A DNA stretch of 53,495 nt from Thermonema rossianum DSM 10300 (GTDB taxonomy: Bacteria > Bacteroidota > Bacteroidia > Cytophagales > Thermonemataceae). The translations under genes were made by a program, and so were the position numbers. Below the pieces are notes generated by a model. The model was not told the origin of the DNA. It saw only the letters and a program-made list of their open reading frames with translations, and made no database searches. Below are positions 45,139-46,812 of the stretch, one piece after another (the first letter of the stretch is position 1; each line of letters begins with the position of its first letter). The stretch is from assembly GCF_000426825.1 (NCBI RefSeq), contig NZ_AUGC01000017.1, positions 1 through 53,495 of the forward strand. The letters run 5' to 3'.

Positions 45139-46812
45139 ATGGAACAGTTCATCGTTTCGGCTCGAAAATACCGCCCTGCTACCTTCGACAGCGTCGTAGG
45201 GCAGCAGCATATTACAACCACCCTTAAAAACGCTATCCGTACCGGGCAGATAGCGCAGGCATATCTTTTTTGTGGACCGCGGGGCGTGGGTAAAACCACT
45301 TGCGCGCGTATCCTGGCAAAAACCGTCAATTGCGAAAACCTGACGCCCGACATAGAGGCCTGTGGCACCTGCAATGCCTGCATGAGCTTTCAAAAAAATG
45401 CATCCTTCAATGTGCATGAGCTCGATGCCGCTTCCAACAACTCGGTAGAAGACATCCGTTACCTGGTCGATCAGGTGCGCTATCCGCCCCAACATGGCCG
45501 CTACAAAGTGTACATCATCGATGAGGTGCATATGCTTTCCAATGCGGCATTCAATGCCTTCTTGAAAACACTTGAAGAGCCCCCGCCTTATGCAATCTTT
45601 ATCTTGGCAACTACCGAGAAGCACAAGATCATACCTACGATTTTGTCGCGTTGCCAGGTATATGACTTCAACCGCATTCAAGTAAGCGATATGGTGCGCC
45701 ATTTGCAGCGCATTGCTGAAAAGGAAGGGGTTCAGGCAGAAGAAGCGGCTTTGCACCTGATTGCACAGAAGGCAGACGGCGGCTTGCGTGATGCCTTGTC
45801 CATGTTCGATTTGCTGGTTACTTTTTCCACTGACCGGAAACTGACCTATGCCGGTGCTTTGGAGCACCTGCATATCCTTGACTACGATTATTACTTCCGT
45901 GTGGTGGATATGCTCTTCAACCGGCAAACGACCGAAGCATTGCTCGTTCTGGATGAAATATTGCGTAAAGGTTTCGACGCACAGTTATTTGTAGTGGGCT
46001 TGGAAGAGCACCTGCGCAACTTGTTGATGAGCCGCGAACAGGCTACGCTTTCGCTATTGGAGGTGCCCGAAACCGCCAAGTTGCGTTTTCAAGAACAAGC
46101 CCAACGCCTGTCACCTTCATGGATAATGACGGCGCTCAATCTGGCTCATAAGTTTGAATTGGAATTCCGTTCGGTGAAAAATGCCCGTGTACACACGGAG
46201 CTCTTGTTGCTTAAGCTGGCGCATCTGCAAGATGCCATAGAGCTTGCCAAGCGGCCGGTGGTCGTGGAGGAAAAAAAAAATGAACTGAATGAAGCAGACC
46301 CGGCACGGCGCCCTGCTGTGCCCCGCAAGGTGCGCACCACCCCCAAACTGGACGAGATTCAGAAAGAGAAGAAAATGGCAGACGAGCCGGCCGGGAGCGG
46401 CAAAGAAGTGCCGGCTGCCACACCGGCAAGCCCCCTGACGGTAGAAGAACCCGCCGTTTCGTTGCAGGAGGCATGGCAACAGCTCGCGCAGGAGCACAAA
46501 GACGATGCTCAACTGCACTATTTGCTTTCGAAACCTTATGAAGTGCGGCAAAACACCATCTGCCTGTCTGTGGAAAGCCGTGCATTGCTTCACCTGACAG
46601 AAGAGTATAAACCACTTTGGCGCAAGCGTCTGCTTGAACTCACCGGCCAATCCTACGATATTGAAGCCAAGATAGAGATCAAAGACAGCGCATCTGATGA
46701 TGCTGCCACGCTTTATTCTACCAAAGACAAACTGCGCTACTTAGCCAAAGAGTACCCGCATCTGAAAAAAATATGGGAGCATTTACAGCTAACCCCCAAG
46801 TCACCTATTTGA
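45139..46812 (+). CDS. dnaX: DNA polymerase III subunits gamma and tau
   Basis: A 557-residue clamp-loader ATPase. Walker A is Gly-Pro-Arg-Gly-Val-Gly-Lys-Thr-Thr (about 46-54), with a zinc cluster of Cys-Gly-Thr-Cys-Asn-Ala-Cys type, Walker B Ile-Ile-Asp-Glu-Val-His, and sensor Ser-Arg-Cys. Domains I-III end near residue 375, followed by a charged linker, then a tau-type C-terminal region to 557. The linker contains ten adenines (46271-46280), discussed separately: slippage there would give a gamma-like form of about 381 residues. The gene starts nine bases after the TPR kinase and is probably co-transcribed with it. Confidence 0.95.
   Translation: MEQFIVSARKYRPATFDSVVGQQHITTTLKNAIRTGQIAQAYLFCGPRGVGKTTCARILAKTVNCENLTPDIEACGTCNACMSFQKNASFNVHELDAASNNSVEDIRYLVDQVRYPPQHGRYKVYIIDEVHMLSNAAFNAFLKTLEEPPPYAIFILATTEKHKIIPTILSRCQVYDFNRIQVSDMVRHLQRIAEKEGVQAEEAALHLIAQKADGGLRDALSMFDLLVTFSTDRKLTYAGALEHLHILDYDYYFRVVDMLFNRQTTEALLVLDEILRKGFDAQLFVVGLEEHLRNLLMSREQATLSLLEVPETAKLRFQEQAQRLSPSWIMTALNLAHKFELEFRSVKNARVHTELLLLKLAHLQDAIELAKRPVVVEEKKNELNEADPARRPAVPRKVRTTPKLDEIQKEKKMADEPAGSGKEVPAATPASPLTVEEPAVSLQEAWQQLAQEHKDDAQLHYLLSKPYEVRQNTICLSVESRALLHLTEEYKPLWRKRLLELTGQSYDIEAKIEIKDSASDDAATLYSTKDKLRYLAKEYPHLKKIWEHLQLTPKSPI
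46266..46317 (+). promoter_or_regulatory. Candidate programmed slippage site in dnaX
   Basis: GGAGG (46266-46270) is followed by ten A (46271-46280) and then TGA in the -1 frame. Zero frame reads Glu-Glu-Lys-Lys-Asn-Glu. A -1 shift or one extra A in the transcript reads Lys then TGA at 46281-46283; loss of one A reads Met-Asn then TGA at 46286-46288. A weak stem (AGCAG 46293-46297 with CTGCT 46313-46317, inner GGC/GCC) starts 12 bases downstream. Homopolymer slippage making gamma is known for dnaX of Thermus, and ribosomal -1 shifting for E. coli. Function here is inferred from layout. Confidence 0.6.

Follow-up and report, generated by a model that had tools for sequence, protein, structure and literature searches.

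Can a single dnaX gene specify both a long and a short clamp-loader protein and, if so, is the choice made by RNA polymerase or by the ribosome? This question is raised by a stretch of 53,495 nucleotides from Thermonema rossianum DSM 10300 (NCBI RefSeq assembly GCF_000426825.1, contig NZ_AUGC01000017.1, positions 1 to 53,495 of the forward strand; hereafter the window), in which an open reading frame (ORF) at 45139..46812 on the forward strand matches TIGR02397 over its cut-off (E 3.3e-128) and encodes DnaX. In the chromosomal frame this gene spells the 557-amino-acid tau protein, with ten consecutive adenines (A10) at 46271..46280 behind the clamp-loader domains. A preliminary description, made from the letters of this DNA, had proposed that A10 is a slippage site giving a gamma-like short form. 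Our comparison of related genes supports that interpretation: the run very probably allows a short and a long protein to be made from one gene, and we are largely confident that it is a transcriptional slippage site like that of Thermus dnaX.

The adenine run and its predicted products

The run begins in codon 378, in the frame GTG GAG GAA AAA AAA AAT GAA CTG AAT, and both other frames are closed immediately behind it, as described previously. In the -1 frame, which would be reached with one extra A, TGA at 46281..46283 (forward strand, as for all features below) adjoins the run, and in the +1 frame, which would be reached by loss of one A or gain of two, a single AAC codon precedes TGA at 46286..46288. 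In the proposed mechanism, RNA polymerase would add or drop adenines while copying A10 and thereby produce a mixture of dnaX mRNAs. Those with 10 or 13 A would be translated into tau (557 or 558 amino acids), and those of other lengths would end at the flanking TGA codons to give gamma (380 to 383 amino acids). The computed products are 380 amino acids for A8, 382 (43.5 kDa) for A9, 557 (63.5 kDa) for A10, 381 (43.4 kDa) for A11, 383 for A12, and 558 for A13. The gamma forms from A9, A11, and A12 have masses of 43.4 to 43.6 kDa and the tau forms from A10 and A13 masses of 63.5 to 63.6 kDa, which corrects an earlier figure of 62 kDa for tau.

The predicted gamma would retain all three clamp-loader domains and lack the tau-only C-terminal part, encoded at 46282..46809. 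Domain III (PF12169) covers residues 248-366 of the window DnaX, and alignments with E. coli-length DnaX chains in the PDB end at residue 358-360, which places the gamma cut where the linker begins. A cut at about residue 381, just after domain III, had been suggested before and is borne out (380-383 amino acids, ~15 residues past the domain), but the accompanying comparison with E. coli gamma is not, because the E. coli protein is longer; a 431-residue chain among the PDB matches presumably represents its length. A10 is the only A or T run of at least nine in the whole window. The 2.95 Mb genome holds 19 A or T runs of at least ten, the dnaX run included, and of the other 18, 11 lie in no ORF of at least 80 amino acids and seven touch a mechanically called ORF. 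Just one of these 18, an A10 at G000:C4:183961-183970 (locus L299), is located well within a long ORF (394 amino acids).

Slippage in Thermus dnaX was reportedly described by Larsen in 2000. In the available excerpts of two papers (PMC1088944; PMC5009743), the dnaX gene of Thermus thermophilus undergoes transcriptional slippage at A9, and gamma is made from mRNAs with a changed run length, as we propose for the window. Both genes have a run of at least nine A behind the clamp-loader domains, tau in the chromosomal, or template, frame, and near stops in both other frames. They differ in that the window has ten adenines instead of nine and that the chromosomal frame flips among its Bacteroidota relatives; mRNAs of varied run length and gamma and tau at a ratio of ~1:1 belong to the Thermus side of the comparison. 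Excerpts from Antonov et al. 2013 (PMC3711429) describe two-ORF dnaX genes, nine of 17 with A10, in which tau would be made by recoding and for which slippage was proposed from an alignment with Thermus. This layout is shared by the sister species of the window and 97 other genes in the survey below, whereas the window itself spells tau directly and its sister (G001) spells gamma. The same excerpts name only three Chlorobi species; the species of that study may overlap with those of our survey, and the paper is the only one on dnaX slippage in Bacteroidetes that we found in the open-licence literature. Because the window fits the Thermus type on each tested feature, and because the A10 two-ORF form was published in 2013, the element is of a known kind. 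The survey adds how widely it is conserved, how often the frame flips, and which signals appear to replace it.

Conservation of the run and of the closed frames

We read 343 distinct dnaX loci from Bacteroidota and counted the 339 with a complete linker. A search of the order to which the window belongs matched 379 of 390 genomes, and genes were taken from the best-scoring matches (the loci of the search and 100 fetched by place). A search of the phylum matched 255 of 257 genomes, and its best-scoring matches supplied 30 loci directly and a further 73, fetched by place and picked to spread over families. Additional dnaX samples comprised 30 loci of 31 matches and, from a set of 593, the 80 that scored best. 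Before counting, we left out four duplicates as well as four loci ending within the linker; L409-L438 and L446-L474 were also read and are not among the 339.

The preliminary description had named an alignment of related dnaX genes as the means to check its proposal, and in the relatives the run is kept: 268 of the 339 genes carry at least nine adenines (A9+) at the same place. The longest linker run is A9 in 42 genes, A10 in 209, A11 in 15, and A12 and A13 in one each. Below nine, A8 does not occur, and the longest run is seven in eight genes, six in 12, five in 13, and shorter in 38. These A9+ runs number 268 in 88,140 nt of linker, compared with six in the 512,800 nt of dnaX sequence elsewhere. 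The frames around the run are closed as well. Both non-tau frames end within eight codons in 218 of the 268 run-bearing genes (13.8% after codon shuffling) and within 12 codons in 253 (26.8% after shuffling), which upholds the earlier view that stops so close in both frames are not random. Within ten codons, the -1 frame is closed in 98% and the +1 frame in 89% of the 170 genes that spell tau (53% and 37% after shuffling), and in the 98 genes that spell gamma the corresponding values, relative to tau, are 95% and 99% (59% and 40% after shuffling).

The run is therefore not due to chance. An accidental homopolymer or an assembly error without function could be entertained for the window, since homopolymer lengths are error-prone in some assemblies and the exact run length of the sister species comes from one assembly. 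For the group, this explanation is already refuted by the sequences and we give it almost no credence: many separate assemblies contributed to the 268 of 339 genes with a run at this position, including 26 genes with more than 55% GC in their first 1,080 nt, both frames are closed far beyond expectation, and the A9 and A10 sisters L373 and L374 both come from single-contig assemblies (G440 and G492). Another true run length in the window would alter only which product the DNA spells directly.

Frame flips and the proposed mechanism of recoding

The chromosomal frame flips between tau and gamma, which goes beyond what the preliminary description foresaw. With the tau frame taken as the longest open frame after the run, the 268 run-bearing genes divide into 170 that spell tau and 98 that spell gamma, and all three codon phases of A10 occur among the surveyed genes. 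In a FastTree phylogeny built from 339 N-terminal parts, the tau or gamma label of the 268 genes must change at least 32 times, compared with 70-88 changes in 100 label shuffles. The family of the window, represented by eight genomes, illustrates this variety. The sister species G001, of the same genus and 91% identical over the first 360 residues, has A11 and spells a gamma of 381 residues ending in EEKKK, while a different frame holds its tau tail; G002 has A10 and spells tau, G004 and G007 have A9 and spell gamma, G005 has A10 and spells gamma, G003 has A_AAA_AAG in phase and a -1 stop instead of the run, and in G006 a contig end falls inside dnaX.

Sister pairs with different spelling often lie a single A apart, as in the window (A10) and G001 (A11), L162 (A10) and L146 (A11), L374 (A10) and L373 (A9), L154 (A10) and L191 (A9), and L375 (A10) and L370 (A9). 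Among the nine discordant sister pairs listed, L087/L100 and L396/L407 have equal runs, and therefore the frame in these was shifted by changes beside the run. The tails compared in three of the pairs differ mainly at third codon positions: the differences at positions 1, 2, and 3 number 55, 29, and 97 between the window and G001 (166 aligned codons), 4, 5, and 40 between L146 and L162, and 9, 5, and 69 between L154 and L191. This substitution pattern indicates that the tau tail is under protein-level selection even in the partner in which it lies out of frame. Several gamma-spelling relatives with A9 or A11 would rely on slippage for tau. Because a mixture of mRNAs would contain every frame at any run length in the template, drift of the chromosomal frame would be almost unconstrained. 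We infer that RNA polymerase slips at these runs with an efficiency that would let both proteins be made and used in the clamp loader, and the pairs one A apart are natural test cases for the direction and efficiency of slippage. In family f36 (L345, L348, L354-L357, L364-L366, L369-L371, and L373-L376), tau- and gamma-spelling genes with A9 and A10 are mixed within two genera, and these genes would also be good material on slippage direction.

Run lengths of 9, 10, and 11 in close sisters could alternatively reflect phase variation, in which the DNA run length mutates within a population and cells switch between tau and gamma. We regard this as very improbable, because A10 is much more frequent than any other length (209 of 268) and because, among the genes read, gamma-spelling is fixed over whole families (21 of 21 in f20 and 7 of 7 in f2).

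The more serious competitor to RNA polymerase slippage is a ribosomal -1 slip on A_AAA_AAA within A10, ending at the adjoining TGA as in E. coli dnaX. Any run of nine or more adenines contains this heptamer in phase from its length alone, the -1 stop adjoins the run in the window, and in related genera without the run, A_AAA_AAG or G_GGA_AAG lies in phase and is accompanied by a nearby -1 stop. For a ribosomal heptamer, however, seven adenines in phase suffice, while slippage needs about nine, and the jump from seven to nine adenines with no A8 would be left unexplained. A closed +1 frame would likewise not be required, since the -1 stop alone is enough for a ribosomal shift in that direction; closure of both frames therefore favours slippage. 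Nor can a -1 shift supply tau in L010, L117, L146, and L386, which spell gamma and need a +1 shift. Slippage is thus favoured by the minimum of nine adenines, the occurrence of all three phases, the closure of both frames, and the flips in both directions, and -1 ribosomal shifting alone, which leaves these features unexplained, is less likely; we consider it improbable as the account of the run. In the excerpts available, PMC5009743 reports that transcripts of bacterial A or T runs nine long can gain as many as six bases, and PMC3711429 gives the rule that shifts both ways within a single gene family are a sign of slippage.

The sequences flanking the run differ in part from those of the E. 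coli ribosomal shift site. The E. coli dnaX gene, as described in the excerpts of PMC3711429, undergoes a -1 ribosomal shift at A_AAA_AAG with an upstream Shine-Dalgarno (SD) sequence and a stem-loop. Compared with this description, the window is the same gene with the same two predicted products and a -1 stop directly behind the slippery site. T follows the run, however, and only A_AAA_AAA and A_AAA_AAT occur in phase, with no AAG; there is no SD sequence at the right spacing, and the predicted hairpin lies at some distance from the site. The preliminary description had drawn attention to GGAGG directly before the run and to a weak hairpin after it. GGAGG is present at 46266..46270 and is not kept in the sister species. 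The spacing between SD sequence and heptamer in E. coli is ~10 nt, whereas GGAGG in the window touches the run, and this wrong spacing and its absence from the sister indicate that it is probably not a ribosomal frameshift stimulator. As a general feature GGAGG was rejected, given the sister without it and an enrichment that is only moderate. The predicted hairpin (GGCACGGC-gccct-GCTGTGCC, 46302..46322) starts 21 nt after the run and has weak support: its stability is modest in the window (a z of -1.9 relative to codon shuffles) and lower in the sister species (-1.2). A downstream hairpin was also rejected as a general feature, with a mean z of -0.20 over the 268 run-bearing genes and 33 of these below -1.5. 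No Rfam family scored above its gathering score in either dnaX region searched.

Several observations weigh against the slippage reading or limit its reach. Among the 98 gamma-spelling genes, a -1 shift would reach tau in 94 and a +1 shift in four, a bias that fits slippage that mostly adds bases but is also predicted by -1 ribosomal shifting. SD-like 4-mers occur beside the run in 38 of 268 genes (9.3 in codon shuffles) and upstream at -18..-5 in 49 of 268 (25.5 expected), and this enrichment might reflect a part played by the ribosome in certain lineages. The tau-frame call is less clear in four of the 268 genes (tail shorter than 120 codons or a rival frame longer than 60), and the A11 of the sister species depends on a single assembly. 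The sample consists of related species, so that its counts are not independent events, and it leans towards close relatives because only the best-scoring order matches were the source of genes. Finally, the element is not universal: 71 of the 339 genes are without it, of which 12 belong to the kinship-coded set from the window's order and 59 lie elsewhere.

Signals in relatives without the run

The 12 run-less genes of the window's order are found among 131. One of them, L201, is a gamma-spelling gene that carries A_AAA_AAG and has its tau tail in the -1 frame. Nine of the remaining 11 have A_AAA_AAG, A_AAA_AAA, or G_GGA_AAG in phase with a close -1 stop, where codon shuffles give 0.23 expected, and L153 and L188 have no such heptamer signal. 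The clearest case, L018 (G003, in the window's own family), has A_AAA_AAG in phase at codon 380, a close -1 stop, and, 5 nt downstream of the heptamer, a stem-loop of 12 continuous base pairs (z -6.9), a combination like that in the excerpts on E. coli (PMC3711429). A stem-loop downstream of the heptamer in L056 has a z of -3.0, the other eight heptamer genes folded have none that stand out (z -1.5 to +1.3), and in family f11 GGAGG lies upstream of the heptamer in all five genes. From their sequences, these heptamers look like a replacement of slippage by an E. coli-type shift. Outside the window's order, many run-less genes have no recognised signal.

One Bacteroidales clade shows a different arrangement. 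Its family yielded 105 close dnaX matches in 190 genomes searched (E up to 1e-172), with open frames of 367-437 residues in 96 and 581-638 in nine, and 66 of the 105 were read as distinct genes, 57 with TAG and nine without. All 57 short genes that were read end at TAG after 362-381 residues, and they form one clade (support 98). In 56 of them the tau tail continues in the same frame for 187-259 codons; the remaining gene, L504, is shifted and was left out of counts on the 56. Behind TAG, the letters AT, GC, and AG are invariant in all 56 genes (TAGATWGCNAGR) within a near-invariant ATWGCNAGR (AUWGCNAGR in RNA); examples are L104:4099-4143, L092:2788-2832, and L103:4102-4146, with 53 other loci of the same family. 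A short stem starting 12-14 nt from the T of TAG reaches the chosen score in 53 of 56 genes, compared with a mean of 12.0 and a maximum of 20 after codon shuffling. RNAalifold found no consensus structure for the region, and a pair count on a MAFFT alignment gave no covariation, with no cells in which both sides had changed and a higher covariation score for a +3 slide. The register of the stem varies between genes, so that support for the hairpin comes only from the simple stem search.

The tails behind TAG differ by 178, 126, and 389 at codon positions 1, 2, and 3 (799 codons in eight hand-picked pairs). Release factor RF1 (TIGR00019) scored over its cut-off in all three genomes of the clade tested, and nine of the 56 genes use TAG as the terminal stop of the tau frame. 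Therefore, UAG is a stop in this clade, and a reassignment of TAG was rejected. ARAGORN saw no UAG-reading tRNA in 21 loci of one genome, which cover part of its 41 tRNA places. On a first reading, the site is a candidate for programmed UAG readthrough at the gamma/tau boundary, with reinitiation at the AUU or AUA behind UAG as a rival; if readthrough is true, the clade has programmed stop-codon readthrough in a bacterial housekeeping gene. Among the best open-licence matches on dnaX, Bacteroidales UAG, or bacterial programmed readthrough, judged by title and the start of the abstract, no matching report was found.

We lean, by a small degree, towards reading these forms jointly: selection in Bacteroidota may keep the choice between gamma and tau while the decoding step is replaceable. 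The common form would be A10 and a slipping RNA polymerase, with an almost neutral chromosomal frame and spellings that interconvert, by a single A in the closest pairs. Lineages without the run would have handed the choice to the ribosome through a -1 heptamer of the E. coli type, which one genus in the window's family combines with a strong stem-loop, or, in the Bacteroidales clade, through UAG, AUWGCNAGR, and a small hairpin. According to the excerpts of PMC5009743, the importance of gamma has long been disputed, even in E. coli. The widely kept run, the closed frames, and the other recoding signals in several run-less lineages are comparative evidence for selection on having both gamma and tau. 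For annotation, an ORF caller is expected to shorten 98 of the 268 run-bearing genes and miss tau.

Two further genes have linkers of other kinds. In L085, from a Bacteroidales metagenome-assembled genome, dnaX stops at TAA (L085:4150-4152) after 383 residues with no A run or heptamer, and the tau tail lies in an overlapping +1 frame, which may reflect a frameshift, reinitiation, or an assembly error. In L111, a Bacteroidaceae dnaX and a single case, the linker has a possibly slippery run of seven G at codon 371 with a -1 stop right behind it.
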